DNA of 28,195 nt, taken from a virus. The stretch is from positions 1 through 28,195 of IMG/VR virus record IMGVR_UViG_3300032086_000875. One strand, written 5' to 3'. Of this stretch, positions 80 through 27,485 are shown in pieces; the first letter of the stretch is position 1; every line of letters starts with the position of its first letter. Made by a program: the position numbers and the translations under genes. The notes under the pieces are model-generated. The model was not told where the DNA came from. It saw nothing but the letters and a program-made list of their open reading frames with translations, and did not search any database.

Positions 80-1006
80 ATGCAACATAATCCAAACGTA
101 ATTCAACTGAACAACACCCGCTCACCAATGGAGCGACTGCGCGAGAATGCCGTGCTTCTATCTGTAGAAGTCCACCTACCGTCATTCAAAAAGACCGACA
201 AGCGTGCCGGTGCTGAACACTCACGTAGCCGGAATGCGAAGGTGGGTAGGCACAAGATCGACAAGATTCTGATCGACTCACCACTACTCAAAACGATTAC
301 CTCACTGGGCAACGAGGCGCGGAACATAGTGAAGAAGCACTGTGCGCCGTATGATCACGGGCGGTATCTCTGTCCGAACTACCGGTACATCGACGTTAAA
401 GAAGAAGTGCGTAAAGTGTTCGACGAGATGCAGGCCAACAAGGACAAGTTTGTCGCGGAGTATCCCACGATCATGGCGCATAACCAGATCGAACTGGGTG
501 ATGACTTCAATCCGGCTGAGTATCCATCTCTACAACAAGTTAAGGACAAGATCGGCTGGAATCTGACCCCGCACCCCGTACCGCTACAGGGTGACTTCCG
601 TAGTCAGGTAGAGCAGGACGGTATCGACGAGATGACTGAGGACTTCCACCGTGCTACCGACAACGCACTGCGTGACTCTCTGGAACATGTTTTCAATCAT
701 GTGCGAAGGACTATCGAGAACGTGTCGGAACAACTCACCGACCGCGACATTGATCCGGACGCAAAGCGGAAGTTTAAGTCCTCATGCCGTGGGTTCCATG
801 ACACCCTGCTGGACAACGTGCTGCGCTACGTCAACATGCTGGACGTGTGCAACATCTATGACAATCCGGAGGTGAAGGCATCCCAGCAGCAGATCAGGGA
901 CTTGCTCACATCCGTCAGTGTGCCGCAGTTGAAAGCATCAGATACGCTGCGCCACGAAACCAAGCAACAAGTGGACGAGATCATCAAGAACTTGCCCACC
1001 CTATAA
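80..1006 (+). CDS. DUF3150-like protein, first gene of a MoxR/VWA module
   Basis: A 308-residue soluble, largely helical protein with no signal peptide or membrane segment. A GAAGGA ribosome site at 66-71 lies 8 bases before this ATG. I see no catalytic motif. The N-terminal part, with a beta-like stretch (LSVEVHLPSF, about 27-36) and a basic helix, resembles the DUF3150 family from memory, and the gene order (this protein, then AAA+ ATPase, then VWA protein) is the arrangement in which such proteins occur in phages. The family name is therefore an inference from context plus weak similarity. It is probably a partner or adaptor of the downstream ATPase. Only 30 bases separate it from that gene, so co-transcription is likely. 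It could also be an unrelated phage-specific protein. Confidence 0.6.
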   Translation: MQHNPNVIQLNNTRSPMERLRENAVLLSVEVHLPSFKKTDKRAGAEHSRSRNAKVGRHKIDKILIDSPLLKTITSLGNEARNIVKKHCAPYDHGRYLCPNYRYIDVKEEVRKVFDEMQANKDKFVAEYPTIMAHNQIELGDDFNPAEYPSLQQVKDKIGWNLTPHPVPLQGDFRSQVEQDGIDEMTEDFHRATDNALRDSLEHVFNHVRRTIENVSEQLTDRDIDPDAKRKFKSSCRGFHDTLLDNVLRYVNMLDVCNIYDNPEVKASQQQIRDLLTSVSVPQLKASDTLRHETKQQVDEIIKNLPTL

Positions 1007-1036
1007 CCACCAACCACAACCAACGAGGAACTAGAA

Positions 1037-2197
1037 ATGCAACTCAATACTGTAATGCAATACGCCGACTCTCACGATGAGCTGATCGAAGACATCGCTG
1101 ATCTGGGCCACGAGATTTCCCTGATCATTCAGGGGCCAATGGGCTGGGGTAAGTCGGCCATGTTACACACGCTGGGCGAGATGCCTAGATTCAAGGGATA
1201 TACACTTGTTTATATAGATTGCACCACCAAGTCCGACTCTGGTGACTTCTTTATGATCAAGTACGGTGAGGACGGCAAGACGTTTCTGACCGTACCCCAC
1301 GAAGAACTGGGCCTACATCTTGAGGGGCCAGTGATCATAATGTTCGACGAGATCGGCAAGATGCCGCGCTCCGCATTCAATGCAGTGCTGCGTATCCTGT
1401 ACGAACGTCGGGCCGGAGGTGACGCACTGCACCCTGATTCGATTGTGTTCGCCACCACTAACCTAGCAGCAGAAGGCTTGGGTGACTTGTTACCACCGCA
1501 TGGTATCAATCGCTGTCAGGTACGGACGTACAAAGTACCCACCAAGATGGAGTGGTTGGGCTGGGCTATTCGCAGGGCTGTTCACCCTTTCATACTGTCG
1601 TACGCTAACCAGAACGACCACATCTTTTCCTGTTTCCTTGAGCATGAAGAGATCGGTCAGTACCCCGAACTGTACGACCCCCGTGCAGCTAACAAGCCCG
1701 TCGCGTACATCACGGGCCGATCTATGGAGCACGCGTCGCATGTGTTCTATGCGTATGACCGTCGCATTGAGGCAGCTAAGGACAACGGGGTGTACCAGCA
1801 AGGTGGAGACCTTGAGAAGAAGTATCAGAGAGTGTTGCTCAATGGCTTGGTCGGAACCGTTGGCCCAGTGGCAGCGAACAACATGATGACCTACTTCAAG
1901 ATGCAGGGTGAGATACCCACGCGTGACCAGATCATACAGAACCCGATGGGTGCGCCTATCCCCAAGAGTGGTGCAGCTAGGTGTCTGTTGATCAGCCGGA
2001 CTCTGAGCGACATGGACAAGGAACTCGCTGAACCGTGGATGACCTACCTGATGCGCGAAGGCTTTACCAATGTTGACCAAGCGTTGTTCGGCATGGGTAC
2101 ACGCGTTAAGGGATACCCTGAGAAGAAGTTACGAGCAGTTGCCGGTAACACGCAGTATCAGAAGTGGGCCGAAGCTAACTCACACTTGTTCGGATAA
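1037..2197 (+). CDS. MoxR-type AAA+ ATPase
   Basis: A 386-residue AAA+ ATPase. The Walker A motif GPMGWGKS spans residues 33-40, Walker B (VIIMFDEIGKMP) residues 99-110 with D104 and E105, sensor 1 is the ATTN segment near 139-142, and an arginine (R159) in INRC is a candidate arginine finger. MoxR-family ATPases act as chaperone-like remodellers together with VWA-domain partners, and the next gene encodes exactly such a partner. The C-terminal 200 residues are not assignable to a known domain and may contact the VWA protein. A GAGGA site at 1025-1029 supports the start. The gene ends 19 bases before the VWA start codon. ATPase assignment is firm; what it remodels is unknown. Confidence 0.88.
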   Translation: MQLNTVMQYADSHDELIEDIADLGHEISLIIQGPMGWGKSAMLHTLGEMPRFKGYTLVYIDCTTKSDSGDFFMIKYGEDGKTFLTVPHEELGLHLEGPVIIMFDEIGKMPRSAFNAVLRILYERRAGGDALHPDSIVFATTNLAAEGLGDLLPPHGINRCQVRTYKVPTKMEWLGWAIRRAVHPFILSYANQNDHIFSCFLEHEEIGQYPELYDPRAANKPVAYITGRSMEHASHVFYAYDRRIEAAKDNGVYQQGGDLEKKYQRVLLNGLVGTVGPVAANNMMTYFKMQGEIPTRDQIIQNPMGAPIPKSGAARCLLISRTLSDMDKELAEPWMTYLMREGFTNVDQALFGMGTRVKGYPEKKLRAVAGNTQYQKWAEANSHLFG

Positions 2198-2216
2198 TAA
2201 TTACGAGGACGATGAA

Positions 2217-3410
2217 ATGTTTGCACTAGATATGGCACTGACACCCGAGCAGCGGTTGAACCGTGAACTCACCAGAGTGCTAGACCATGACCGCTACGCA
2301 GCACTGTCAGGTGTGGCACAACTGGGTGAGATACGGGTGGAGCGCGGTGTACCTACCGCCTACACAAATTTCAGAGATTTTGTCTTTGGGTACGAGTATA
2401 TAGAAACTCTGACCGATGAAGAGATACGGGGTTTGCTCATCCACGAGTTGTATCACCCGACTTACATGCACATGCCGAACTATCTTTGGATGTACAAGAT
2501 CAACCCCAAGCTGGCCAACATGGTGTGGGATTACCGCATCAACGGGCAGATCGTGGCAGAGAATCGGGTGGATGGATTCGCCAAGCTACCTGACGGTGCG
2601 TTGTACGATAGCAAGTACGACGGGATGCTTGAGGGTGAGATATGGAAACTTCTGTACGAGGAACAAGAGGAAGGTGGAGCTGGTGGTGTCCCTAACAATG
2701 AGCAGGGCAGCTTGGACGAGCATGATGTCGAAGCGTTTGAATCACTGTCCGAAGAAGAGCAGCGAGAACTTGTCAACGATATACAGGAAGCCATACGGCA
2801 GGGACTACTTGCCGCAGAGAAGTCCGGCAAGGGGGGTAACAAAAACCTTGAGGAACTTGTTGAGGTAGTTATCCCGTGGGAGGACATCCTCCAAGAGTGG
2901 TGTGTTGATACGTGCAGCGGGGGTGAGGACGGTACGTTCCGCGTTCCCAATCGCAAGTACATGCCGATGGACATCATCAGACCGAGCCGTATACAGGACA
3001 AGCTGGACGATCTTGTCATATCCATCGACACGTCAGGCAGTATTCAGTCCAAAGAAATCACCGTGTTTGTGTCAGTGATGCGTAGCATTATCGAGACACT
3101 GGCAATCAACAATGTACATGTGATTTACTGGGATACTGAGGTTCGCTCGCACGAAGTCTATGGTGAGACAGCCATACCACTGTCTGAACTTGTTAATACA
3201 ACTAAGCCGAAGGGAGGTGGCGGCACTGACGTAACGTGTGTACCCGAGTACATAAAGCAGAACAACATCCAAGCCGAAGGCGTTGTGGTACTGACTGACG
3301 GTCACATATGGGGAGGATGGGGTACGTGGACAATGCCTGTACTATGGGCAGTCCTGAACAACAAAGAAGCAAACCCAAGCGTCGGCAAAAAGCTAGACGT
3401 ACTTATATAG
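2217..3410 (+). CDS. Metallopeptidase-like plus VWA domain protein (DUF2201 type)
   Basis: A 397-residue protein with two visible domains. The N-terminal domain has an HExxH zinc-protease motif, HELYH at residues 76-80, with D105 in the NMVWDYRING segment as a possible third ligand. A Glu-rich linker (about 141-200) follows. The C-terminal VWA domain has a complete-looking MIDAS: DTSGS at 271-275, GGTD with T337 and D338, and LTDGH with D361. This architecture matches the DUF2201 metallopeptidase/VWA family that accompanies MoxR ATPases. The frame stays open upstream to 2070, but that part lies inside the ATPase gene; the ATG at 2217, 8 bases after a GAGG site, is the sensible start. Another ATG at 2212 is out of frame and soon stops. 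Whether the protease is active is unknown. Confidence 0.85.
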   Translation: MFALDMALTPEQRLNRELTRVLDHDRYAALSGVAQLGEIRVERGVPTAYTNFRDFVFGYEYIETLTDEEIRGLLIHELYHPTYMHMPNYLWMYKINPKLANMVWDYRINGQIVAENRVDGFAKLPDGALYDSKYDGMLEGEIWKLLYEEQEEGGAGGVPNNEQGSLDEHDVEAFESLSEEEQRELVNDIQEAIRQGLLAAEKSGKGGNKNLEELVEVVIPWEDILQEWCVDTCSGGEDGTFRVPNRKYMPMDIIRPSRIQDKLDDLVISIDTSGSIQSKEITVFVSVMRSIIETLAINNVHVIYWDTEVRSHEVYGETAIPLSELVNTTKPKGGGGTDVTCVPEYIKQNNIQAEGVVVLTDGHIWGGWGTWTMPVLWAVLNNKEANPSVGKKLDVLI

Positions 3411-3417
3411 GAGAACG

Positions 3418-4464
3418 ATGATGCGAATAACAGACTTTCTAAATAACAGACACCTACTAAAGTACTTCAACCCGCACAGCTACGGTAAAGCTGAGTTAGA
3501 TGTGGACGAGGAACTTAAAGACATTGAAACTGCGATAAACAAGTGTGTGGGGTACGAGGCTACGCCCATACAAATGACCCATGAGAATCGTTTTCACCAA
3601 GAGCCGACCGAGTTTAACGCTCTTGGTGTTAAGTACAAAGGCGATCTCATGTACCGCGCTTTGGTCACAGGGACTATGGAAGAGAACATGCTGGGTGTCG
3701 AGACATTGAGGTATTGGGTGATCTCGCCGTTCATACACAAGCAACGAGCGAACAGTAACAACCCCTACCCGTCTAGGCTTACAGACAAGGCTGCTATCCG
3801 CACGAACGATATTAAGAAAGCAGTTAACGAAGTGCTTAGATGCCCCGCTGTAACTTTTGATCTCATCGTTGCCCATTCCTATAACAAGATGGCGAGTATG
3901 GCTAAGGATGTTTTGGAGACAGACCAAGTTGCACTTAACAAAGAAGTGACTGAGTTTTGGTCAGACGTTAGGCATGAGGACAACAAACCCCTGTTGATGG
4001 AGTGGTTGGCTCACGCGCTTACCGGCAACATGGAGATGTACATACCAGCAAGTGAAAAACTTGTGGAGAGAGCGAAGGAACACCTAGAGGCTATCAAACC
4101 TTTGCATGAACAAATTGACGAAGCTAACTCATTGGTTCCTGTATTTGTTTCACAGTTTGGTGATGATGACGTGGCTCGTTGTTACACAGTGAAGTCTACA
4201 GAGCAGAAGGGGTATATTGACCCACAAGGTTTTGTTGACAAACTCACCGTGCATGAAACTGCAAGCGGGATGCCGTACATAATCCGATCCAAGTTGGCTG
4301 CGATGCAGATCAATGAAGCGAATTTGCTCGCCAGTTGGGATCATTACAAGTACATACCCAACGTCGGTGCGTTCATGCTTGACAATTTTCTACACACAGG
4401 AGGTAAGCACGGCATGGTGTTCTTGAACCCTACTGAGTTTGCCGAGGTGTTTCCGAGTGAGTGA
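3418..4464 (+). CDS. Unknown 348-residue protein downstream of the VWA gene
   Basis: A soluble protein with no motif I recognise. It starts with two adjacent ATG codons (3418 and 3421) after AGGAG at 3409-3413, which itself overlaps the stop of the VWA gene, so it is translationally close-coupled to the module. The middle (about 130-240) is predicted to be helical and charged; the last 100 residues contain alternating hydrophobic stretches that suggest a mixed fold. There are no membrane segments and no cysteine clusters. By position it is a candidate fourth partner or substrate of the MoxR/VWA machine, but that is guilt by association only. Confidence 0.75.
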   Translation: MMRITDFLNNRHLLKYFNPHSYGKAELDVDEELKDIETAINKCVGYEATPIQMTHENRFHQEPTEFNALGVKYKGDLMYRALVTGTMEENMLGVETLRYWVISPFIHKQRANSNNPYPSRLTDKAAIRTNDIKKAVNEVLRCPAVTFDLIVAHSYNKMASMAKDVLETDQVALNKEVTEFWSDVRHEDNKPLLMEWLAHALTGNMEMYIPASEKLVERAKEHLEAIKPLHEQIDEANSLVPVFVSQFGDDDVARCYTVKSTEQKGYIDPQGFVDKLTVHETASGMPYIIRSKLAAMQINEANLLASWDHYKYIPNVGAFMLDNFLHTGGKHGMVFLNPTEFAEVFPSE

Positions 4465-4795
4465 TGCGTTCAGGCTTGAGGTATTTGTAGACAAGGACGG
4501 CACGGTTTATGACGAGGTGATACTAGACAAGGTGGGCGATGACACTAACAAGTGGGATTACTTACTAGACTCTAAACTTCACCATATAAACAACTTACCA
4601 AGCTGGATGCGAAGGAAGTTAGCTGTGTTGAAAATGCGTAGCTACGACCCACCTACTGAGGACATACCGGAAATCGGTAGGCGCATAAGTAAATACACGT
4701 TCTGGGTTTATCCCAGCGAAGGAGATACCGATGGCGATGACGCCAGAGAAGAAAGTAAAACAAGAAGTAGTGAAGCAACTGAAGAATATGGATGA
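4457..4795 (+). CDS. Small unknown protein
   Basis: I place the start at the GTG of 4457 (VSDAFRLEVF), about 9 bases after a GAGG at 4444-4447; it overlaps the end of the previous gene by 8 bases. A TTG at 4439 in the same frame is a poorer candidate. The product is about 112 residues, with a beta-rich N-terminal half (two DKDG/VGDD turns), a central basic helix, and an acidic, polar C-terminal tail. The tail is encoded by DNA that also encodes the start of the VRR-NUC gene, an overlap of 65 bases. No function is recognisable. Confidence 0.6.
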   Translation: MSDAFRLEVFVDKDGTVYDEVILDKVGDDTNKWDYLLDSKLHHINNLPSWMRRKLAVLKMRSYDPPTEDIPEIGRRISKYTFWVYPSEGDTDGDDAREESKTRSSEATEEYG

Positions 4796-5081
4796 TGTGT
4801 ACTACTTCTTTCCAGCAACGGGCGGTTATGGACGGTCAGGTGTACCCGACATAATCGTCTGTTACAAAGGTTGGTTCTACGGTATTGAATGCAAGGCAGG
4901 AAAGAACAAACCCACCGCCCTCCAGTTGCGTGAACTGGAGAACATTAACGAAGCCGGAGGTGTTGGGTGGGTAGTAAACGAAGATAACGTACATCTTGTG
5001 CAACAAGTTTTAGAAACAAGAGAACATGATGGGCCGCGCAGACAGTCGTGGCAACAACTGATACTAGAATTTGATAAGTGA
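4731..5081 (+). CDS. VRR-NUC domain nuclease
   Basis: A 116-residue PD-(D/E)xK nuclease of the VRR-NUC family. The catalytic pattern is clear: G37-V-P-D40 in the SGVPDIIV segment, E53 and K55 in GIECKAGKNK, and Q65 in the following helix. Stand-alone VRR-NUC proteins of about this length are common in phages, are thought to cut branched DNA such as Holliday junctions, and typically co-occur with the SNF2-type helicase seen later in this window. AAGGAG at 4719-4724, 6 bases before the ATG, supports this start despite the 65-base overlap with the upstream gene. It is the last gene before the gene-free stretch at 5082-5352. Confidence 0.9.
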   Translation: MAMTPEKKVKQEVVKQLKNMDDVYYFFPATGGYGRSGVPDIIVCYKGWFYGIECKAGKNKPTALQLRELENINEAGGVGWVVNEDNVHLVQQVLETREHDGPRRQSWQQLILEFDK

Positions 5082-5352: not shown

Positions 5353-6456
5353 ATGAAACGACCAGACATAGACTTTTTACAAATTGCTAAGAAGAACTTA
5401 AAGGTTATGCCCAAGCGGCATCAAAAAGCATATTTTGATACGGTATTAAGTTGCCCCTTGTTGTGGTTTGGGGACAAGTCTTATAACGATCTTTGGGACG
5501 AATGGCACGTAACAGATGTTCCGGCGGTTGTTGATACGCATGAGTGGAGCTTTGATGAATTTGTGTTCTGCTACCGCGCCGTAACCGAAACTAAATGCGC
5601 ATCAGATGCACACTCTATAGAAATTGTTGATAAAACCCGCATGAGTCCTGAATTCACTGACGTGTGGATATACGTGTGTACTAACCCTGATAAACTTTCT
5701 ATTCAACAAAAAGCAAGTATGGGTATGCGACCATCTATAGATAGGGAAATAGAAGGTGTGCGTAACACATACTCACATTTTTCTGAGAAGCATCCAAATG
5801 TATTTCAGTTTAATTTTCTCCCTGAACATCAAGATGACATACCAACAGATCGGACTGTGTACCTGCGTGTCCATATGCTAGATAAAAGTCTTGGTTTTCA
5901 CAGAGCGTTTGGTGGTTACTTCTTGATGGACAAGTGGGACGGACATAGTGATCCTGCCGAAGCGAATTATACCTACGTCCCAGCCTACGGCTCTTTGGTA
6001 AGTATGTTAGAAGAGCACCGCCATGACATAGACCTGTTTAATAACAGCCACAAACTAGCAAAAGAATTAAGCGAATGTGTGCTATCGCTTTGTATAAAAC
6101 TTATGACGTACATGAAGTACGGCGAGAAGCACGCGGTGGAGAAGCTACCAGAAACACCAAAGAAAACGGTTGGCCCTCTTGCAGAGAAACGTCCGTGGGT
6201 AAACGCTAGTGGCCCACACATACTACTGCTGGATCGTTTGCCCAGTACACAGAAGCCACATCAAGGTGGCACGCACGCTAGTCCTAAACCACACCGTAGG
6301 CGCGGGCATTGGAAGACACTGAACCATCCGAGGTACAGGCGTCACCCGCAATACCAAAAGAAGATATTTGTTAAGCCCAGCTTTGTAGGGCCAAAACAAG
6401 TTAGTTACGAAGGAAACATTTACCGCCTTGTAGACCCTTTGGAGGACAAGCTATGA
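5353..6456 (+). CDS. Unknown protein with basic RRRGHW C-terminal motif
   Basis: A 367-residue protein. Residues 1-260 form a mixed alpha/beta region without a motif I know. A Pro-rich linker (about 263-312) then leads to a strongly basic tail: PHRRRGHWKTL at 313-323, further Arg/His residues, and KKIFVKPSFVGP at 336-347. Tails with an R-R-x-GHW block followed by a V-x-P-x-x-VG block recur, as I remember, in many otherwise unrelated phage and bacterial proteins; their role is not known to me, and nucleic acid binding is only a guess from charge. AGGAAG precedes the ATG. The gene ends in an ATGA overlap with the next one, indicating translational coupling. Confidence 0.75.
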   Translation: MKRPDIDFLQIAKKNLKVMPKRHQKAYFDTVLSCPLLWFGDKSYNDLWDEWHVTDVPAVVDTHEWSFDEFVFCYRAVTETKCASDAHSIEIVDKTRMSPEFTDVWIYVCTNPDKLSIQQKASMGMRPSIDREIEGVRNTYSHFSEKHPNVFQFNFLPEHQDDIPTDRTVYLRVHMLDKSLGFHRAFGGYFLMDKWDGHSDPAEANYTYVPAYGSLVSMLEEHRHDIDLFNNSHKLAKELSECVLSLCIKLMTYMKYGEKHAVEKLPETPKKTVGPLAEKRPWVNASGPHILLLDRLPSTQKPHQGGTHASPKPHRRRGHWKTLNHPRYRRHPQYQKKIFVKPSFVGPKQVSYEGNIYRLVDPLEDKL

Positions 6457-6743
6457 CAGACGAAGAGATAGATAAGTTATTAGAGCAGCTTGATGATGAA
6501 GAAGATGTAGACAGTGCGCTCAAAGAATACGCGACGATAGAAAGACAAGTAGCGACGGCTTTAGTTGAAGGTATAGATGCCGACGCTGATGTACGCATGG
6601 TGCAGTCTGTACTGCTTACCAAACTTGTTGGTGTGGCTATATCTATGGGTATGCCAAGAGAAAAGTTTATGAGCATCGTGTCTAACACTTGGCGAGTAGT
6701 TGAGTGGCATACTGAACATAACGATGACGGAGTGATACACTAA
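6453..6743 (+). CDS. Small acidic helical protein
   Basis: A 96-residue protein. The first 25 residues are very acidic (EEIDKLLEQLDDEEDVD) and the rest is helical with a hydrophobic patch around residues 50-75. The start overlaps the previous stop (ATGA), with GGAGG at 6441-6445, an ideal ribosome site. The stop overlaps the next start (TAATG). No family is recognised; small acidic proteins in this position of phage genomes are often host-interaction factors, but nothing here shows that. Confidence 0.7.
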   Translation: MTDEEIDKLLEQLDDEEDVDSALKEYATIERQVATALVEGIDADADVRMVQSVLLTKLVGVAISMGMPREKFMSIVSNTWRVVEWHTEHNDDGVIH

Positions 6744-6952
6744 TGAATGGTGAATCCTTTTACTTGGACATCGACGGAGAGAAGTGGCAGTACATGTTGG
6801 TGACTGATCCAGAAGCTGCACTGTATTGGAACCCGTCTAGCTACAAACTAAAACTAAGCGACATCAAGATCGTAAGTAAATGTTCGCCCGAAGATCGCAA
6901 GAGACTAAGGCGAGAGATTCTAAAAGATATTCAGGAGAATGATGATGGGTAG
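6743..6952 (+). CDS. Small unknown protein
   Basis: A 69-residue protein with a beta-rich first half (FYLDIDGEKWQYMLV) and a charged C-terminal helix. It starts within the TAATG junction with its upstream neighbour; GGAG at 6729-6732 is 10 bases away. The 3' end overlaps the next small gene by about 11 bases. No family is recognised. Confidence 0.65.
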   Translation: MNGESFYLDIDGEKWQYMLVTDPEAALYWNPSSYKLKLSDIKIVSKCSPEDRKRLRREILKDIQENDDG

Positions 6953-7097
6953 AGTATATAACGATTGGCGCACAATACCGGATGATCCGAACCGTGTAGG
7001 CGATGAGGACGAGGATTACAAGTGGCGGTCATACGAAGTTGACCCAGACGAAGAACGCGAGCGGGAGTGGGACAGGCATGTTAGAGATAACAATTAA
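6942..7097 (+). CDS. Very small acidic protein (51 residues)
   Basis: A short frame beginning at the ATG-ATG pair of 6942/6945, directly after AGGAG at 6933-6937 with the same AGGAG-four bases-ATG spacing as the 3418 gene. It encodes about 51 residues (begins MMGRVYNDWRTIPDDP, ends DRHVRDNN) and stops at TAA 7095-7097. It is rich in Asp, Glu and Arg with several Trp/Tyr. The strong ribosome site and the way it fills the gap between two other small genes are the reasons for calling it. No function is known. Confidence 0.6.
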   Translation: MMGRVYNDWRTIPDDPNRVGDEDEDYKWRSYEVDPDEEREREWDRHVRDNN

Positions 7098-7203
7098 GGT
7101 AGACGAGGAACATGCCGAAGAACTAATACAGCTAGGCAAACGCATCATAGCAGCAGTAGAAAAGCTGGAAGAGTTTGTAGAAGAAGATGTACAAGAATCT
7201 TGA
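7078..7203 (+). CDS. Small helical protein (41 residues)
   Basis: The frame is open from 7003, but the upstream part reads as low-quality sequence in the frame opposite the 51-residue gene. The ATG at 7078 (MLEITIKVDEEHAEEL) gives a tidy 41-residue product: one strand, then an amphipathic acidic helix with heptad-like leucines and isoleucines, so a possible coiled coil or dimer. GGGAG at 7062-7066 is 11 bases upstream. It overlaps both neighbours slightly. No family is recognised. Confidence 0.5.
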   Translation: MLEITIKVDEEHAEELIQLGKRIIAAVEKLEEFVEEDVQES

Positions 7204-7369
7204 GCAACAATGTAAGTGCGGCCAGAAGATGGTCGAGGTGCTTGGGTATGTCGAAAAGCAGGACGGTGATGAACACCCGAAGGCTTTTCGCAAAGGTTGG
7301 TTCTGCCCGTGGTGCAGAGAATGGAAGGACGCAATACTTAGAGAAAAACTATTAGAGGAAGAACGATGA
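7187..7369 (+). CDS. Small zinc-ribbon-like protein
   Basis: A 60-residue protein with two cysteine pairs, C9-K-C11 and C40-P-W-C43 (GWFCPWCREW), separated by 28 residues. This is the spacing expected for a small zinc ribbon, though the first pair is CxC instead of CxxC. The start lies inside the upstream gene and the end forms an ATGA overlap with the next gene. Zinc binding is inferred; DNA, RNA or protein binding cannot be told apart. Confidence 0.65.
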   Translation: MYKNLEQQCKCGQKMVEVLGYVEKQDGDEHPKAFRKGWFCPWCREWKDAILREKLLEEER

Positions 7370-7566
7370 TTATCACAAAAGTTAGTAAAGATTTCTGGCG
7401 TTTAGAATTACGCAGCGGTGACGATAAGTTAATCTGGTATGCCCCAACACGTACTGAGGTGCGCGGTAAGTACCAGCGTTGGGCGCGTGATAAGAAGTTA
7501 GACAAGATAAACTCACAGACGCCGCAACCAACTATAGCAGCGGAAAGCGTGGCTCATTTGGAATAG
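7366..7566 (+). CDS. Small unknown protein
   Basis: A 66-residue protein with a beta-rich N-terminal half (KDFWRLELRSGDDKLIWYAP), a basic helix (RGKYQRWARDKK) and a low-complexity tail. The ATG overlaps the previous stop (ATGA), so it is probably translationally coupled. It could bind nucleic acid by charge alone, but no family is recognised. Confidence 0.6.
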   Translation: MIITKVSKDFWRLELRSGDDKLIWYAPTRTEVRGKYQRWARDKKLDKINSQTPQPTIAAESVAHLE

Positions 7567-7589
7567 AACTAAATAGTTAGGAGAGAGCT

Positions 7590-7994
7590 ATGATAACTCC
7601 TCTTATGTGCGTAGCCCTAGCTATCTACTTTGAAGCTAGAGGTGAACCAGATGCAGGGCAGATTGCAGTAGCTCATGTGATCCGAAACAGAATCGAAGAC
7701 CCACGCTATCCAGACAATGCGTGCGAGGTAGTGAAGCAGGGTTACTACTGGAACGGTAACCCTATTCGCAACATGTGTCAGTTTAGTTTTTACTGTGACG
7801 GCAAACCGGAAGACCCGCACGACGAACAAGCTTGGCGCGATGCGTTATATATGGTGCATCTAAGTGGTTTGATCCCCGACATAACAGGCGGCGCGACTCA
7901 TTACCACAGTACAAAGGTGTTCCCAGCGTGGGCTTTTACAGGACAAGTTACAGCCAACATACACAAACATGTGTTTTACAAAGGAGTTAATTAG
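7590..7994 (+). CDS. SleB-like cell wall hydrolase
   Basis: A 134-residue protein that is essentially a bare SleB/CwlJ hydrolase domain (Hydrolase_2). Hallmarks are ALAIYFEARGEP at 9-20 with E15 as the expected catalytic glutamate, AGQIAVAHVIRNRI at 22-35, a QFSF segment, and GATHYHS followed by a P-x-W near the C-terminus. Relatives cleave peptidoglycan glycan strands. There is no signal peptide, so it needs a holin or another export route if it acts as the endolysin. It lies in the replication region, away from the late genes. An AGGAG site precedes the ATG, and its TAG stop overlaps the GTG start of the next gene by one base. Confidence 0.88.
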   Translation: MITPLMCVALAIYFEARGEPDAGQIAVAHVIRNRIEDPRYPDNACEVVKQGYYWNGNPIRNMCQFSFYCDGKPEDPHDEQAWRDALYMVHLSGLIPDITGGATHYHSTKVFPAWAFTGQVTANIHKHVFYKGVN

Positions 7995-8398
7995 TGTACG
8001 AATACAAAGCAACGATAGTTAAAGTGGTGGATGGAGATACTGTAGATGTTGACATTGATCTTGGTTTTGATACTTGGCTGCACAATCAGCGGATTCGTTT
8101 GTATGGTATTGATACTCCCGAATGCCGCACAAGAAATGAACAGGAGAAAGCTCATGGACTCCTCGCAAAGAAGTACGTTCAAGAAGCTCTCGTCGTGGGA
8201 AGAACATATGCGCTCACAACAAAAGAGAAAGGAAAGTTTGGAAGATTTCTGGGCGAGTTCAAAACGGGAAAAGGATTTATTACGAAACTCCTTATCAAAG
8301 AACGATTGGCGGTTCCGTACACTGGGCAAAATAAAAAGGAAATAGCTGCTGCACAAGAAGCTAATCGTCTTGCTCTTGTTAAGGAAGGTAAGCTGTAG
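7994..8398 (+). CDS. SNase-like thermonuclease
   Basis: A 134-residue staphylococcal-nuclease-fold protein. The first strand block VVDGDTVDVDID (11-22) supplies the calcium-binding aspartates, RIRLYGIDTPE (33-43) contains R35, D40, T41 and E43, and R84 in the FGRFLGE block completes the active-site set. Known relatives cut DNA and RNA with calcium. No signal peptide is visible, so it probably acts in the cytoplasm, perhaps on host DNA. The GTG start is chosen because AAGGAG at 7981-7986 is 7 bases upstream and because it sits in the TAGTG junction with the hydrolase gene. It ends in an identical TAGTG junction with the polymerase gene. Confidence 0.9.
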   Translation: MYEYKATIVKVVDGDTVDVDIDLGFDTWLHNQRIRLYGIDTPECRTRNEQEKAHGLLAKKYVQEALVVGRTYALTTKEKGKFGRFLGEFKTGKGFITKLLIKERLAVPYTGQNKKEIAAAQEANRLALVKEGKL

Positions 8399-10278
8399 TG
8401 GATGTAATAACCGTAGACTTTGAAACTTATTACAGCAAAACCTTTGGCTTTAGAAAGTTAACGACTGAACAGTACGTACGCAGTCCTGACTTTGAAGTCA
8501 TAGGTGTTGCTGTAAAAGTTAATGACGGCAAGACCAAGTGGTTGAGCGGAGCGTTCGATGATCTCAAAACTTATTTACAGAATGAGTACGATTGGGCTAA
8601 CTCTGCAATACTGGCTCACAATACTTTGTTTGATGGGGCTATTCTTAATTGGCTGTTTGGCATTAGGGGTAGGGTTTATTTTGATACTCTCAGTATGGGT
8701 CGTGCTATTCATGGGGTGGATGCTGGTGCATCTCTTAAAGCGTTGTCTGATATGTATGGCATCGGTCAGAAGGGGGACGAGGTACTCAAAGCCGAAGGTA
8801 AGCGAAGGGAAGATTTTACCGAGGAAGAACTAGCTGAGTACGGAGACTACTGTATAAATGATGTGGAGTTGACTTACCAACTGTTTGACATCTTTATGAA
8901 GAAGCGTGGGTTTCCCATGATCGAACTCAAAGTGATAGACATGACTCTGCGTATGTTTATCGAACCTATGCTCGAACTGGACGTAGCCAAACTAGACAGC
9001 CATCTTGATAACCTTAAAGAACAAAAAGAGAAACTTCTTTTACAGAGTGGTGTCGAGCTAGAGAACTTGATGTCCAACAACAAGTTTGCAGAACTGTTGC
9101 GTGACGCTGGGGTTGAACCCCCTACAAAGATCAGCGCACGTACGGGCAAGGAAACCTATGCGTTCGCCAAAACAGACGAAGGCTTCAAGGCGCTACAAGA
9201 ACACGAAGACATAAACGTACAGACCTTAGTAGCTGCACGACTAGGTTTGAAAAGTACTTTAGAAGAAACGAGAACAGAACGATTCCTAGACATTGCCACC
9301 CGTGGCAAGAAGATGCCAGTTCCCATCAAATATTACGCAGCACACACCGGACGGTGGGGTGGGTACGACAAGGTAAACCTACAAAACTTACCATCACGAG
9401 GGCCAAATGCAAAGGTATTGAAATCATGTATTTGCGTCCCTGAAGGGCACACCCTGATCCAAGCCGATTCCGCTCAGATAGAGGCACGAGTACTGGCGTG
9501 GTTGGCAGAACAGAACGATCTGGTCAGTGCATTCAATCGTGGTGAAGATGTGTACAAGAAGATGGCTAGTAGCATCTACAAGACCAAAGTAGAAAAAGTC
9601 ACGCCAGAACAACGGTTTATAGGCAAGACCACAATACTAGGGGCTGGCTACGGTATGGGTGCGGTCAGGTTCCGTGAACAGTTGAAGACCTTTGGTGTAG
9701 AAGTTGACGCGAAAGAATCCCGTCGGATTGTGGATGTGTACCGAAATACCAACGACAAGATCACTCAATTATGGCGGGACGCTAACACCGCACTGGAGTG
9801 CCTGCATAGTAATGCCATAACAACGCTGGGTAAGAAGGGCGTTCTGAAACTTCTGCCGAAGGAGAATGCTATCCAACTGCCGTCCGGCCTCAGTATGTAC
9901 TACAACAAACTGAAGATGGAGCTAGATGAAGAGGGTAGAGAGCAATACTCCTACAAGACCCGCATGGGGTACATCAAAATATACGGCGGTAAAGTTATTG
10001 AAAATGTATGTCAAGCCATAGCACGTTGTGTAATGGCAGAACAAATGCTGAGAATACAAAAGGAATACAGAGTTTTGTTAACAGTCCATGACTCTGTGGT
10101 ATGCTGTGTACCGGACGAACAAGTTACCGAAGCTTGTAACTACATAGATTCCTGCATGGCTTATGTTCCCGAATGGGCATCTGGCCTGCCCGTCCGTGGG
10201 GATGTGGAAGTTGGGAAGAACTACGGAGACTGTATTGAATGGGTACGAAAACCGCCGCATGGTCTTACAGCAGCCTAA
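8398..10278 (+). CDS. Family A DNA polymerase with 3'-5' exonuclease domain
   Basis: A 626-residue replicative polymerase. An N-terminal DnaQ-like proofreading domain has D7 and E9 in VDFETYY, an exo II block AHNTLFDGAIL, and an exo III block YCINDVELTYQLF. The polymerase domain has motif A (QADSAQIEARVLAWLA, D357), the O-helix motif RFIGKTTILGAGYG (R406, K410, Y418), and motif C TVHDSV (H564, D565). The 5'-3' exonuclease domain of bacterial Pol I is absent, as usual in phage enzymes. The residue equivalent to E. coli Phe762 is leucine (L414, codon CTA at 9637-9639). Motif C reads HDS where E. coli has HDE. Start: GTG in a TAGTG junction with the SNase gene. The 3' end overlaps the next gene by 40 bases. 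Confidence 0.95.
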   Translation: MDVITVDFETYYSKTFGFRKLTTEQYVRSPDFEVIGVAVKVNDGKTKWLSGAFDDLKTYLQNEYDWANSAILAHNTLFDGAILNWLFGIRGRVYFDTLSMGRAIHGVDAGASLKALSDMYGIGQKGDEVLKAEGKRREDFTEEELAEYGDYCINDVELTYQLFDIFMKKRGFPMIELKVIDMTLRMFIEPMLELDVAKLDSHLDNLKEQKEKLLLQSGVELENLMSNNKFAELLRDAGVEPPTKISARTGKETYAFAKTDEGFKALQEHEDINVQTLVAARLGLKSTLEETRTERFLDIATRGKKMPVPIKYYAAHTGRWGGYDKVNLQNLPSRGPNAKVLKSCICVPEGHTLIQADSAQIEARVLAWLAEQNDLVSAFNRGEDVYKKMASSIYKTKVEKVTPEQRFIGKTTILGAGYGMGAVRFREQLKTFGVEVDAKESRRIVDVYRNTNDKITQLWRDANTALECLHSNAITTLGKKGVLKLLPKENAIQLPSGLSMYYNKLKMELDEEGREQYSYKTRMGYIKIYGGKVIENVCQAIARCVMAEQMLRIQKEYRVLLTVHDSVVCCVPDEQVTEACNYIDSCMAYVPEWASGLPVRGDVEVGKNYGDCIEWVRKPPHGLTAA

Positions 10279-10922
10279 AGACTTTTGAACAATGCCCGAA
10301 AAAGTATTACCACCTGAAAGTTATAAGGGACTACGACGAAGAATTTAACACTGAAGCAATGCGGTACGGCAACGAGTACCACATGGCAGCAGAGCAGTAT
10401 GTGAGTGGTTTGGTTGATGAGTTAGACCCCCGATTCGATTACTCACAGAACGTGCTGGACAAGTTACTGGCAATGCCGGGTGAGAAGTTATGCGAGTACA
10501 AGATGGGCATTACGTCTAACTTGGAGCCGTGTGAGTTTTTCGCTGACAATGTTTGGTATCGAGGTGTAGCTGACCTGATTATCTTGGACAGAGATACAGG
10601 GATAGCGAGAGTGTTTGATTACAAGACAGGCAAGTCTGCCAAGTACGCTGACGTTGGTCAGTTGGAGCTTATGGCGCTGTGCGTGTTCAAACACTTCCCA
10701 GAAGTGCATACAGTAAAAGCAGGTTTGCTGTTTGTTGTGTGTAACAAGTTAGTTAAAGAAACGTATGAACGTAAAGATGAGTCGGAGTTGTGGAAGAAGT
10801 GGCTGACCAAACACGGAATCCTAGAGAAAACTTTCGCAACAGATGTATGGAACCCAAGACCCACTGGATTGTGCAAGGCTCATTGCATTATACTAGAGTG
10901 TCCTCATAACGGGAGAAGATGA
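10239..10922 (+). CDS. RecB/Cas4-like PD-(D/E)xK nuclease
   Basis: A 227-residue nuclease. It begins with the typical SYSSLKTFEQCPKKYY block (9-24), followed by GNEYH (44-48), then GVADLIIL with D112 and VFDYKTGK with D127 and K129, and a QLELMAL helix containing the downstream glutamine. One cysteine near the N-terminus (C19) and three near the C-terminus (LCKAHC...EC) reproduce the 1+3 pattern that holds a 4Fe-4S cluster in Cas4 and AddB. Such phage proteins sit beside Pol A and SNF2 helicases and are thought to process DNA ends in replication or recombination. GGAG at 10225-10228 lies 10 bases before the ATG; the gene overlaps the polymerase by 40 bases and ends in ATGA. Confidence 0.88.
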   Translation: MGTKTAAWSYSSLKTFEQCPKKYYHLKVIRDYDEEFNTEAMRYGNEYHMAAEQYVSGLVDELDPRFDYSQNVLDKLLAMPGEKLCEYKMGITSNLEPCEFFADNVWYRGVADLIILDRDTGIARVFDYKTGKSAKYADVGQLELMALCVFKHFPEVHTVKAGLLFVVCNKLVKETYERKDESELWKKWLTKHGILEKTFATDVWNPRPTGLCKAHCIILECPHNGRR

Positions 10923-11239
10923 TGCCGTACACAAAGAAGAAGCGCCCGTACAAAAAGGAGTACGAGCAACAGAAGAAGCGTGGTGAACATGCTGATCGTA
11001 TGGAACGGCAGCGTGCACGGCGTAAAATAGACAAGGAAGGTGTAGACAAAAACAAGAACGGCAAAGCCGACAAGCGAGAGGGCAAGGATGTAAGCCACAA
11101 GAAAGCACTGAGCAAAGGTGGCAAGAACTCTCACGGTACCAAGATAGAAAGCAAGTCACGCAACCGATCCTTCAAGAGAGATTCTAGTGGACGATTAGTT
11201 TCTGAAACTAGTAAGCGCGAAAGAAAGAAAAAGAAGTAA
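10919..11239 (+). CDS. Lysine-rich protein with HNH-like remnant
   Basis: A 106-residue, extremely basic protein (Lys/Arg about 40 percent) starting in an ATGA overlap with the nuclease gene. The C-terminal half, KDVSHKKALSKGGKNS then ASK-like SKSRNRSFKR, follows the pattern DHKKPLSKGGSNS...N seen in small HNH-fold phage proteins, but the usual Asp before the His is Ser here and the following Asn is not clearly placed. It is either a degenerate HNH protein or a DNA-binding protein that keeps the shape. It ends 12 bases before the helicase gene. Confidence 0.7.
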   Translation: MMPYTKKKRPYKKEYEQQKKRGEHADRMERQRARRKIDKEGVDKNKNGKADKREGKDVSHKKALSKGGKNSHGTKIESKSRNRSFKRDSSGRLVSETSKRERKKKK

Positions 11240-11251
11240 ACTGGAGAAACG

Positions 11252-12793
11252 ATGAGAGTAGTTGATAACAGGGGTCTACGCCTGCGGGTTCGTGACCCCC
11301 AAAGAATCACAACAGCCATACCGACTAGCCGTGATCTCGGCAACAACGAAGTCCTAGTTAAGTGGGGCGTAGACGAAGCAAGAGTGCTACGCAATCTTAA
11401 CGTCAAGAATGTACCGTCCCCAATACTAGGTCAGTACGATTGGCCGGGTCGATACAAACCTTTTGAACACCAAAAGACTACAGCATCCTTCCTTACACTA
11501 AACAGTAAAGCGTTCTGCTTCAACGAGCAAGGTACAGGAAAGACTGCCTCTGCTATCTGGGCTGCTGACTTCTTACTCAAACAAGGTGTCATTAATAAAG
11601 TCCTGATCATCTGCCCTCTGTCTATCATGGACTCTGCGTGGAGGGCTGACCTATTTACATTCGCAATGCACCGTAGTGTAGATATAGCCCACGGGCCAAA
11701 GGACAAGCGCCGTCAGATAGTCATGGGGGATTCAGACTTTGTGATCATCAACTACGATGGTGTAGAGATAGTAGAAGAACATATACAGATGGCTGGGTAC
11801 GACTTGATAATCGTAGACGAAGCCACACACTACAAGAACGCAAATTCAAAACGCTGGAAAGTACTTAACAGAATAATAAAACCTGAGACATGGGTGTGGA
11901 TGATGACGGGTACGCCTGCTGCTCAGTCCCCCCTCGATGCGTTCGGGTTAGCCAAGATGATTAATCCACTGGCCGTACCGCGTAGCTTCTCGTCATTCCG
12001 CGAGATGGTCATGTATAAGGTGACGCAGTTTAAGTGGGTTCCCAAAGACAATGCAGTAAACAAAGTACACGCAGCACTACAGCCAGCAATTCGGTATACG
12101 AAGGAGCAATGCCTCGATCTACCAGAGATGACATACGCCAAGCGTGAGATCGAACTGACACCGCAACAGAATAAATACTACAAAGCTATACGCAGTCACA
12201 TGCTAACAATGGCTGCTGGAGAACAAGTTACTGCACCAAACGCTGCTGTAACTATGAACAAGCTACTGCAAATCTCATGCGGTGCAGTCTATGCCGACAG
12301 TGGAGAGACAGTAGAGTTTGATATTAAGAACAGATACAAAGTATTGAAGGAAGTTATTGACGAGGCTAGTCAGAAAGTACTGGTCTTTGTGCCGTTTAAG
12401 CACGCCATCGACATACTATCTGAGAAACTTTTTAAGGACAAAATATCTAACGGGATCATCCGGGGCGACGTAAGTGTTTCAAAGCGCACTCAACTGTTCA
12501 AAGAATTCCAAGACACAGACGATCCCAGAGTCCTGATAATACAGCCGCAAGCCGCAGCACATGGTGTCACCCTAACCGCAGCAAATACCATCGTATGGTG
12601 GGGGCCAGTGGCTTCGTTAGAAACTTATGCTCAAGCTAATGCACGGGTGCATCGGTCTGGGCAAAGGCATCCTTGTACAGTCGTACAGTTACAAGGCTCA
12701 CCGGTCGAGAAAAGAATATACAAACTACTTGACCAAAGAATAGATGTGCATACAAAAATAATAGATTTGTACAATGAAGTACTTGAAATGTAA
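11252..12793 (+). CDS. SNF2-type superfamily 2 helicase
   Basis: A 513-residue SF2 ATPase. Motifs in order are FEHQ (71-74), Walker A NEQGTGKT (91-98), a DEAT box (189-192, in IIVDEATHYKN), TGTP (219-222), motif V (QPQAAAHGVTLT, 431-442), and motif VI QANARVHRSGQ (461-471). The motif VI form QxxxRxHRxGQ is diagnostic of SNF2/RapA-type translocases. There is no extra chromatin-like domain. In phages it accompanies VRR-NUC nuclease and Pol A and is thought to act on branched DNA during replication or recombination. CTGGAGAAACG just before the ATG supplies a ribosome site. The last codons overlap the -35 hexamer of the promoter at 12783. Confidence 0.93.
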   Translation: MRVVDNRGLRLRVRDPQRITTAIPTSRDLGNNEVLVKWGVDEARVLRNLNVKNVPSPILGQYDWPGRYKPFEHQKTTASFLTLNSKAFCFNEQGTGKTASAIWAADFLLKQGVINKVLIICPLSIMDSAWRADLFTFAMHRSVDIAHGPKDKRRQIVMGDSDFVIINYDGVEIVEEHIQMAGYDLIIVDEATHYKNANSKRWKVLNRIIKPETWVWMMTGTPAAQSPLDAFGLAKMINPLAVPRSFSSFREMVMYKVTQFKWVPKDNAVNKVHAALQPAIRYTKEQCLDLPEMTYAKREIELTPQQNKYYKAIRSHMLTMAAGEQVTAPNAAVTMNKLLQISCGAVYADSGETVEFDIKNRYKVLKEVIDEASQKVLVFVPFKHAIDILSEKLFKDKISNGIIRGDVSVSKRTQLFKEFQDTDDPRVLIIQPQAAAHGVTLTAANTIVWWGPVASLETYAQANARVHRSGQRHPCTVVQLQGSPVEKRIYKLLDQRIDVHTKIIDLYNEVLEM

Positions 12794-12811
12794 AAGCACT
12801 GCACATATAAT
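12783..12811 (+). promoter_or_regulatory. Near-consensus sigma70-type promoter
   Basis: TTGAAA at 12783-12788 (5 of 6 matches to TTGACA), then exactly 17 bases, then a perfect TATAAT at 12806-12811. The -35 box lies in the last codons of the helicase gene and transcription would begin near 12818, about 30 bases before the next start codon. It would drive the helical protein, HTH, four-cysteine and SSB-like genes with the host RNA polymerase. Confidence 0.7.
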
Positions 12812-12848
12812 CACTCCCCCAAACTAAAACATAAAGGAGAACGATGAA

Positions 12849-13253
12849 ATGACCGAAGCTGAAGAGGTCGGGTTAGACCGGCTTGTTGACGCCTGTATAA
12901 AAATCCGTGATCGGAAAGCGGCTATCACTGACGAGTTAAACACTAAGCTCAGTGCGCTGGACGAGAAGCTGACTAAATTTAAGCAGGTGCTTAACGATCA
13001 TTGCGAAGCTACTGGCGCTGAGTCAGTACGCACGGCCAGCGGTACCTTCTACCGATCAGTTAAGACCAAGTTCTGGACATCTGATTGGGAAAGTATGAAC
13101 GAGTTTATCATGCAGCATAAGGCTGTGGATTTGCTGGAGAAGCGTATCCATCAGACCAACATGCGTACCTTCCTTGAGGAGAACCCTGACAAACTGCCGC
13201 CCGGTCTTAACGCTGATAGCGAATACACTATAACTGTACGGAGGAAAAAATAG
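12849..13253 (+). CDS. Conserved-looking helical phage protein
   Basis: A 134-residue protein. The first 60 residues form a long charged helix likely to be a coiled coil (RDRKAAITDELNTKLSALDE), followed by a segment with KFWTSDW and RIHQTNM blocks and a short C-terminal strand EYTITVRRKK. I recall similar proteins beside SSB and HTH genes in other phages, perhaps related to the Gp157 group of siphovirus proteins, but cannot confirm a family. AGGAG at 12835-12839 is shared by two ATGs: 12844 reads ATG-AAA-TGA and stops at once, while 12849 opens the real gene. It ends in a TAGTG junction with the HTH gene. Confidence 0.78.
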   Translation: MTEAEEVGLDRLVDACIKIRDRKAAITDELNTKLSALDEKLTKFKQVLNDHCEATGAESVRTASGTFYRSVKTKFWTSDWESMNEFIMQHKAVDLLEKRIHQTNMRTFLEENPDKLPPGLNADSEYTITVRRKK

Positions 13254-13618
13254 TGTCAGATGCAAAGTACGTTACTTTGGATGAACTAGCTGCACACGTA
13301 GGTGTCAAAGTATCTACGGTTAGGCAGTGGGTGAAGCGCGGGTTTGTCCCACGCGAGACTTACATAAAGGCCGGTAATACCTACCGTTTCTGTGTGGAAG
13401 ATGTTGTTGCTGCACTGCGGAAGGAAGAGCCAAAGGGTCGGTATGAAGCAGCGGTTGAGAAAGCCGCAGATAATCTGCGTGAGGGGGATGAACGCTCTGA
13501 GCGCGGTACTGTAACTCGTGAGATGATAGAGAACGTCATCAATGAGTACGAAGAAACGAAGTCGAGCGAAGAGCGCGACGTAGAAGACATGCTGTCGGAG
13601 TTAGATGATGACATCTGA
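13253..13618 (+). CDS. HTH protein of MerR/excisionase-like type
   Basis: A 121-residue protein. Residues 6-33 (YVTLDELAAHVGVKVSTVRQ onward to KRGFVP) form a helix-turn-helix of the MerR/HTH_17 type, followed by a wing-like segment NTYRFCVEDVVAAL. The C-terminal half is a charged helical region ending in an acidic tail. The GTG start forms a TAGTG overlap with the gene upstream. Possible roles are a DNA-binding regulator or an accessory replication protein; excisionase is possible by fold only, and no integrase is present in the window. It overlaps the next gene by 14 bases. Confidence 0.8.
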   Translation: MSDAKYVTLDELAAHVGVKVSTVRQWVKRGFVPRETYIKAGNTYRFCVEDVVAALRKEEPKGRYEAAVEKAADNLREGDERSERGTVTREMIENVINEYEETKSSEERDVEDMLSELDDDI

Positions 13619-14378
13619 TGGGTTGCCTGATAGCTATAAGAACTTGTTTTCTAAGCTGAAGTCTGAGGCTCCGAAGTCAGAGATCAACCGGATAAGTATC
13701 CGAGAGAATGCGTTTCGCAAAGTAGTTGGTGGTAAAGAAGTTGAGGTTCTTGAGGGCGATAGTTTAAAACTTGTAATAGTAAAGACTGCACCGATCTCAA
13801 GAATGTATTATGCTGGTGAGTTCGTATCCGGCGACCACAACACTCCCACTTGTTGGTCTGACGATCAGGCGAGTGGGAGACCCTCACAGAATGTTGGTGA
13901 AGGTAAACAACACATTACATGTTTTGATTGTAAGCAAAACATAAAAGGTTCCGGACAGGGCAACTCCCGTGCGTGTCGGTTTCGGCAACGCATAGCAATC
14001 ATGCTAGTCGATGATAATAACGAGTTGACCAATGATACGGTGTACCAACTTGACCTTCCGTCTACCAGTATTTTTGGTAACGATCAAAAGAAGATGTCAA
14101 TGCAGGCGTTTGCAAAGTACTTGAATGCTAACAAAACTCCGTTGGCTACTGTCCTTGTAGAAGCTAGGTTCGATGCGGATTCCTCGATACCTAAGCTGTA
14201 TTTCAAAGCAGTGCGACCACTGGAAGAGCGAGAACTTTCAATTGCGATGCACGCACAGAAAGACCCAGACACTAAGGAATTAGTGAAACTTGTTTTCAAA
14301 TCTAACACCCCCAAAGGTGACAATGTTCAAAGTATGTTTGATGTTGTTGAAGGGGAAGGAGTCTACGTTCAAAAGTAA
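13605..14378 (+). CDS. Phage protein with a four-cysteine zinc-knuckle pattern
   Basis: A 257-residue protein. Cysteines C83 (TPTCWS), C106 and C109 (CFDC), and C124 (SRACRFRQRIAI) form a likely zinc site in the first half; the second half is beta-rich. Proteins with a TPxCWS...C-x-x-C...KAC-RR order occur, as I remember, next to SSB-like genes in phage replication clusters, but I do not know their function. The start uses the second of the overlapping ATGs inside the HTH gene end, with a CGGAG upstream. Single-strand DNA binding or replisome scaffolding are guesses from context. Confidence 0.78.
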   Translation: MMTSDGLPDSYKNLFSKLKSEAPKSEINRISIRENAFRKVVGGKEVEVLEGDSLKLVIVKTAPISRMYYAGEFVSGDHNTPTCWSDDQASGRPSQNVGEGKQHITCFDCKQNIKGSGQGNSRACRFRQRIAIMLVDDNNELTNDTVYQLDLPSTSIFGNDQKKMSMQAFAKYLNANKTPLATVLVEARFDADSSIPKLYFKAVRPLEERELSIAMHAQKDPDTKELVKLVFKSNTPKGDNVQSMFDVVEGEGVYVQK

Positions 14379-14395
14379 TACCGCAGTATCTAATC

Positions 14396-14411
14396 TTGGC
14401 TGCAAAGCCAA
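14396..14411. repeat. Perfect hairpin between two replication genes
   Basis: TTGGCT, loop GCAA, AGCCAA: a perfect 6-pair stem with a GNRA-type tetraloop in the 66-base gap before the SSB-like gene. No T-run follows, so it is not a standard terminator. It could set mRNA stability or processing between the two cistrons. Confidence 0.5.
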
Positions 14412-14444
14412 AGCACATTAACCCTTGTTTATACGAGAGCGATT

Positions 14445-15128
14445 ATGAGTAAGAAAACTTTTATGATTCGCAACGTGGAAGCGTTATATCCGCGACTAGA
14501 TCAGCCATACCACTTCTCATCTACGGGTGGTAAGAACGGTAAGGGCGGCACTGTACCTTGTGCAGCTACTGATCAGGGCGCTGAGTACAGCATGAGTTTT
14601 AAGCTGGACAAAGCGCAAGCTAAAGAGCTACTAGCAGCGATGACTAGTGCCTATGAAGATGATCGGGAAGATAGCTGGCCCGGTATGTCTATGCCTTTCA
14701 AGAAGCCAGAAGATGGCGGTATTGTAGGTAAAGCCAAAATAGCTGCGTCCTACAAAAGCCCACCAAAGTTATTTGATGCGGCAACCAAACCTTTACCCGA
14801 GGATTTCCAACTCACTACAGGTAGTATTGTGAATATATTTGTAGAGTTGATTCCTTATAGCGGTGGTATGGGCAGCAGCGTATCTCTACGGTTACGGCAA
14901 GTTCAAGTAATCAAACTGAAAGAACGTACTGATACTTCTGTGTTCGATGCACAAGAAGGATTCACTCAGTATGAAGAAAGCGTGTTTGATGCCGCTCCAA
15001 CTGAAGCTCCTAAAGAAGCTGCTAAAGAAGAACCAGAAGAGCCATCAGAACCAAAGGTTCGTGAGTCTAAGAAGAAGCCACCGGCTGATGACGATCTGTC
15101 TTCAATGCTCGATGAGTTTGATGACTAA
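14445..15128 (+). CDS. Single-strand DNA-binding-like protein (DUF2815 type) with acidic tail
   Basis: A 227-residue protein. The first 165 residues are beta-rich and resemble the DUF2815/SSB-like family (MIRNVEALYPRL at the N-terminus, a central SYKSPPKLFDA block, an LRLRQVQVIKL strand near the end). A Glu/Pro/Lys-rich linker follows, then a very acidic C-terminus, DDDLSSMLDEFDD at 215-227. Acidic tails of this kind are typical of ssDNA-binding proteins and recruit replication partners in T7 gp2.5, T4 gp32 and bacterial SSB. A CGAGAG site precedes the ATG. A hairpin terminator-like element lies 23 bases after the stop. Confidence 0.82.
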   Translation: MSKKTFMIRNVEALYPRLDQPYHFSSTGGKNGKGGTVPCAATDQGAEYSMSFKLDKAQAKELLAAMTSAYEDDREDSWPGMSMPFKKPEDGGIVGKAKIAASYKSPPKLFDAATKPLPEDFQLTTGSIVNIFVELIPYSGGMGSSVSLRLRQVQVIKLKERTDTSVFDAQEGFTQYEESVFDAAPTEAPKEAAKEEPEEPSEPKVRESKKKPPADDDLSSMLDEFDD

Positions 15129-15150
15129 TAACTTTTGTTCTTTTAACCTG

Positions 15151-15175
15151 AGACGCCCTTCGGGGCGTTTCTCTC
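15151..15175 (+). terminator. UUCG hairpin terminator-like element
   Basis: ACGCCC (15153-15158), tetraloop TTCG, GGGCGT (15163-15168), followed by TTTCTCTCT. The stem and UUCG loop are very stable, but the T-run is interrupted by C, so partial termination is likely. It separates the SSB-like gene from the primase-helicase gene and would lower expression of the latter relative to the former. Confidence 0.75.
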
Positions 15176-15190
15176 TACGATATATGACTT

Positions 15191-18131: not shown

Positions 18132-18157
18132 TGCCCTCCTTGTGGGGGCATTTTTTT
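18132..18157 (+). terminator. Intrinsic terminator of the + strand block
   Basis: Stem TGCCCTC (18132-18138) with GGGGGCA (18144-18150), one G-U pair, loop CTTGT, followed directly by seven T residues (18151-18157). This is a textbook intrinsic terminator for the replication block. The T-run overlaps the stop codon of the convergent late gene. On the - strand the hairpin is not followed by a T-run, so it acts in one direction only. Confidence 0.85.
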
Positions 18158-24041: not shown

Positions 24042-24044
24042 CGC

Positions 24045-25991: not shown

Positions 25992-25995
25992 TTTA

Positions 25996-26826: not shown

Positions 26827-26835
26827 TTTATTCTC

Positions 26836-27483: not shown

Positions 27484-27485
27484 TT

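Follow-up and report, generated by a model that had tools for sequence, protein, structure and literature searches.

The window analyzed here, a 28,195-base virus record that represents a fragment of an aquatic phage, opens with three genes whose products could be the parts of one machine. The question raised by the locus is whether these genes belong together and, if they do, what such a machine would act on and at which stage of infection. The genes, which we call D, M, and V, begin an operon on the plus strand. D (positions 80 to 1006) encodes a DUF3150-like protein of 308 amino acids, recognized from Pfam, family profiles, and a structural match and proposed to be a third subunit or adaptor. 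M (1037 to 2197) encodes a MoxR-class AAA+ ATPase of 386 amino acids, assigned from AAA_5, phrog_1297, and its Walker, sensor-1, and arginine finger motifs. V (2217 to 3410) encodes a DUF2201 protein of 397 amino acids with an N-terminal zincin-like domain and a C-terminal VWA domain.

Gene layout of the window

The preliminary description of this DNA placed three consecutive genes here, and plus-strand open reading frames (ORFs) at 80 to 1006, at 1037 to 2197, and ending at 3410 agree with it. The third ORF as listed overlaps M because of an in-frame ATG further upstream. We rejected that start, at 2070, since a relative has a stop codon within the upstream stretch and the ATG at 2217 follows a Shine-Dalgarno-like motif, gagg; V is therefore 397 amino acids long. 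The intergenic gaps are then 30 nt between D and M, 19 nt between M and V, and 7 nt between V and the next gene, g4, and a Shine-Dalgarno-like aaggac lies about 10 nt 5′ of the D ATG. The product of g4 (3418 to 4464, plus strand; 348 amino acids) is genus-specific, and we rejected g4 as a member of the module.

On the same strand, the trio precedes a VRR-NUC/Holliday-resolvase-like nuclease gene, g5b (4731 to 5081), which is a conserved downstream neighbor in 61 loci, and a replication block (8398 to 18061) encoding PolA, an exonuclease, an SNF2 helicase, SSB, and a DUF927 primase. A terminator-like hairpin (18132 to 18150) separates this transcription unit from an opposing one on the minus strand (18156 to 28195), which encodes a 1,961-amino-acid polyvalent protein and DNA-ejection-like and other likely virion proteins. 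A scan for sigma-70 promoters was uninformative (11 sites versus 22 expected), and megablast against phages gave no match.

Three other genes of the window deserve mention. The large polyvalent protein (18156 to 24041, minus strand) carries LPD39 and a DarB-like C terminus, and its position is that of the N4 virion RNA polymerase. Within the replication operon, a small lysozyme- or endolysin-like gene (7590 to 7994; phrog_938) lies directly 5′ of PolA, and a 134-amino-acid protein (12849 to 13253) has weak Mu Gam-like matches and falls in a PHROGs family labeled “minor head protein.”

Domains and conserved residues of the three proteins

M exceeded the Pfam cutoff for AAA_5 (E = 1.1e-5) and was assigned to phrog_1297 in PHROGs. 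It contains Walker A (G33..GKS40), Walker B (D104-E105), sensor-1 (N142), and arginine finger (R159) motifs. The Walker motifs had been described as intact, and the comparison of 92 M sequences showed these and the other two motifs to be conserved. D104, N142, and R228 are invariant, and the Walker A residue K39 and R159 are each present in 91 of the 92. The nearest solved relatives of M are the AAA modules of Midasin (E ~ 5e-32), and a neighboring VWA partner gene is present as well.

V matched DUF2201_N (E = 8e-13) and DUF2201 (E = 9e-16) above their Pfam cutoffs within a single protein and was assigned to phrog_1314. Its gene encodes, on the plus strand, HELYHPTYMH, an HExxHxxxxH motif at residues 76 to 85 (2442 to 2471), and DTSGS, a MIDAS DxSxS motif at residues 271 to 275 (3027 to 3041); both were assessed by motif conservation and a shuffle test, and HExxHxxxxH arose in 0.015% of shuffled V sequences. 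The catalytic and MIDAS residues are nearly unchanged in 107 relatives that range from 21 to 89% identity. E77, H80, H85, and D105 and the MIDAS residues D271, S273, S275, T337, and D361 each occur in all 107, and H76 occurs in 106.

In a structural model of V (pLDDT 84.9), HExxH lies on a confident helix (residues 67 to 82). The VWA domain of the model matched the VWF A2 domain (Z 12.6; rmsd 2.5 over 134 residues), which confirms the predicted VWA fold, and the structural matches include the Midasin MIDAS domain. A weak profile match (E = 0.007) that spans the HExxH helix relates the N-terminal half to a solved metallopeptidase, MJ1213, which we take to be the peptidase selecase. In HExxH peptidases, the glutamate serves catalysis rather than metal binding. 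The invariance of the residues and the match to MJ1213 support the earlier reading of HELYH as a real metal-site motif, and we consider the N-terminal domain a probable zinc protease (zincin) on the basis of the motif, Pfam, and this one weak profile match. Phage homologs of V in GenBank (phrog_1314) are commonly labeled “HNH endonuclease” or “homing endonuclease.” Pfam found no HNH domain in the window V, whose significant Pfam domains are only of the DUF2201_N/DUF2201/VWA and metallopeptidase types, and we rejected the label for this protein. The HNH label on phrog_1314 proteins appears to have spread from PHROGs.

The Pfam assignments suggested at the outset held for M and V, but the window D fell below the DUF3150 cutoff (E = 0.0011; 18.8 bits versus 24.9 bits), and in its case the assignment stands at the level of the family. 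DUF3150 is the sole Pfam family that D itself matched at an E value of 0.01 or better. PF11348 was matched by 40 of 59 members of the D family (best E = 1.4e-7), and hhalign aligned D with its plasmid homologs, a family that includes proteins annotated as DUF3150, at 98.9% probability. In a structural comparison with BFVD, the top viral match was a DUF3150 protein (E = 3e-16; TM 0.79/0.83). Membership of D in DUF3150 is therefore supported despite the subthreshold score of the window protein. Against the PDB, D had no significant match by sequence or by Foldseek. We claim no known fold for it; the VIA-align rows were generic helical bundles (best Z, 10.9).

Co-occurrence and codivergence of D, M, and V

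For the comparison we assembled 80 viral loci and 21 bacterial contigs, along with several regions from plasmids and phages, and ran iterated profile searches. Because the viral loci are the 80 best matches to V, the co-occurrence figures describe its near and middling relatives rather than the whole family. Where a viral locus extended 3.5 kb or more beyond the 5′ end of V, M was present in 45 of 45 and D in 41 of 45. The gene order over all loci examined was DMV in 48, MVD in 14, and MDV in 9, two of them being viral orders and the third that of plasmids and bacterial contigs; D thus stays with M-V through rearrangement. The three proteins also diverge together. Across the 25 viral loci that have each of the five genes compared, pairwise distances correlated at 0.82 (D-M), 0.87 (D-V), and 0.90 (M-V), whereas those of D, M, or V against polA or g5b correlated at 0.56 to 0.73, although all of these values reflect shared phage ancestry in part. 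The joint machine proposed in the preliminary description is well supported by this neighborhood survey: a failure of the three genes to co-occur in other phages, named there as the refuting outcome, is clearly not what the loci show. As far as genomics can tell, D, M, and V belong together.

D was not found in N4, Ettore, K64-1, phage G, phiFa, K479, CRP-7, or TM3_14A, in two viral contigs (59 kb and 66 kb) with both M and V, or in Synechocystis pSYSA_M, and we rejected it as a universal partner. Its absence from N4, jumbo phages, CRP-7, and the 59- to 66-kb contigs indicates that D is not needed universally. Among the cultured phages searched by tblastn, clear D homologs were limited to one cyanophage sequence, in three deposits, and Tunturi_3. 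With so few cultured phages represented, the trio belongs chiefly to uncultivated aquatic phages and certain plasmids. The three deposits (OQ594354, OL906435, and PP438419) are 65,014-base records with differing phage and host names and a 100% identical DUF3150 gene, and they may for that reason be one phage deposited three times. Tunturi_3 encodes a DUF3150-like protein (7872 to 8831) in a genome without a V homolog.

The same D-M-V trio is carried by Burkholderiales plasmids, beside PRTRC and conjugation genes. D is the gene directly preceding V in 20 of the 25 plasmid V records listed, and the trio lies between PRTRC and type IV secretion/TraD genes, adjoining type IV secretion genes, or adjoining PRTRC genes. 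In one plasmid, pBcp895-1, counted among the 20, an IS21-type insertion (istA/istB; 6326 to 8445) interrupts the DUF3150 gene between M and V.

Related systems and a proposed role

The M and V families are those of N4 gp24 and gp25 (phrog_1297 and phrog_1314). The pair was treated as unexplored in the preliminary description, but it had been recognized before, both among the N4 core genes and in jumbo phages. As in the window, these Schitoviridae core genes encode a homologous MoxR ATPase and zincin-VWA protein and are adjacent and 5′ of replication genes; N4 differs in that no DUF3150 gene was found genome-wide and that identity is only about 25%. gp24 and gp25 are middle transcripts, and the pair is core in all N4-like phages compared (PMC4193335). 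A MoxR and metallopeptidase-vWA pair with the same two-gene architecture and domain fusion is present in group 2.2 jumbo phages (PMC7824862). In contrast to the window, searches of K64-1, Ettore, and phage G revealed no D, and the pair is near virion genes in some jumbo phages.

Several cellular systems resemble M-V. NorQ/NorD, CbbQ/CbbO, and RavA/ViaA likewise combine a MoxR AAA+ ATPase with a MIDAS-bearing VWA partner, and the mechanics are likely shared, but their clients are metabolic enzymes, and their VWA partners are not known to carry a DUF2201 zincin domain. In the solved NorQD, the AAA+ pore takes up a VWA finger, and rotation of the ring stretches the linker to the N-terminal domain (PMC13036017). 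Midasin (Rea1/MDN1), whose AAA modules come nearest to M, also docks a VWA-MIDAS domain on its AAA ring, but it is one giant polypeptide without a peptidase and acts in ribosome assembly. The MoxR-vWA ternary systems found in conflict loci (PMC7159879) share with D-M-V a three-part composition that includes MoxR and vWA; their third part is VMAP rather than DUF3150, and their effector domains are different. We did not assign the trio to them, as D had no Pfam match other than DUF3150 at the E value given above.

A literature search in which subscription papers were thinly covered returned no paper naming DUF3150, none on the D-M-V trio, and nothing linking gp24/gp25 to von Willebrand. The M-V pair is thus known from N4-like and jumbo phages, whereas its steady third partner, DUF3150, common to conjugative plasmids, appears to be undescribed. 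Genes of the gp24/gp25 type are core to N4-like phages, have relatives in more than 550 phage records, and are widely mislabeled as HNH endonucleases. The DUF3150 protein that accompanies and codiverges with them, in numerous aquatic phages as well as in Burkholderiales plasmids, gives them a named third partner and renders a role confined to the virion unlikely.

From gene content, motif conservation, co-occurrence, codivergence, and operon context, we infer a physical complex, a peptidase activity, an adaptor role for D, and a client. We would give an even chance to the model in which D-M-V is a single ATP-driven remodeling machine of early or mid infection, with the V peptidase cutting a client that D recruits and with replication or transcription machinery as the likely client. 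The three proteins would be made early or mid infection alongside the phage replication genes, and M would assemble as a MoxR-type AAA+ ring onto which the VWA domain of V docks. The MIDAS metal of V would grip an acidic residue of the client, and rotation of the M ring would pull on V, by analogy with NorQD (PMC13036017). Beyond the linker, the zinc metallopeptidase domain at the N terminus of V would then cut or process the client, which D, as third subunit, would recruit or hold. The client would most likely be a complex met by incoming mobile DNA, such as the replication or transcription machinery of the host or of the element, and not a virion part; host RNA polymerase, the replisome, and a defense complex, the targets suggested in the preliminary description, are candidates. 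A narrower form of this model, which we regard as tentative and somewhat unlikely, is that the DUF3150 adaptor, MoxR ring, and zincin-VWA protein make up a three-subunit ATP-powered protease of phages and conjugative plasmids that dismantles or cleaves a host complex just after DNA entry. If true, a machine common to both kinds of element would indicate a shared early need of incoming DNA.

The main rival is a chaperone or protease of virion assembly: MoxR-VWA would help to build virion parts, with the metallopeptidase processing structural proteins. The same role has been proposed for the jumbo-phage homologs (PMC7824862), mid-phase virion genes lie near gp24/gp25 in the N4-like phage RPP1 (PMC4193335), and there are exceptions to the layout of the window, the M-V pair of K64-1 and the V gene of TDDLMA being located among virion genes. 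However, in this phage and most of its relatives, the trio heads the replication operon and the virion genes lie opposite, a topology that N4 matches. A near-complete relative of 54.8 kb is arranged in the same way: its opposing unit holds the virion-like genes, those for head and tail among them, and a separate head-protease-like protein is encoded among the head genes. The trio-bearing conjugative plasmids, moreover, make no virions, and a purely virion-assembly role therefore fits poorly. We judge this rival to be unlikely; a putative early role in replication or host takeover agrees better with the setting, which is a replication operon in phages and, on plasmids, the vicinity of PRTRC and conjugation genes.

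We likewise doubt that the trio is a counterdefense device that unfolds or cleaves a host defense complex that phage or plasmid DNA encounters on entry, even though its presence in both phages and conjugative plasmids, adjoining PRTRC and transfer genes, would suit such a device. Antidefense genes are usually patchy, which counts against the idea, as does the lack of any match to the PADLOC antiphage defense models. The early/middle expression in N4 (PMC4193335) and the presence of related MoxR-vWA ternary systems in conflict loci (PMC7159879) are consistent with counterdefense, but a pair that is core in all N4-like phages compared suggests a housekeeping role (PMC4193335). It is very improbable that V serves solely as a structural VWA adaptor whose zincin is degenerate and noncatalytic and that D is an unrelated operon neighbor: some relatives have no D, but E77 and the candidate metal ligands are invariant or nearly so in the 107 V sequences, and D accompanies M-V through rearrangements and across plasmids.
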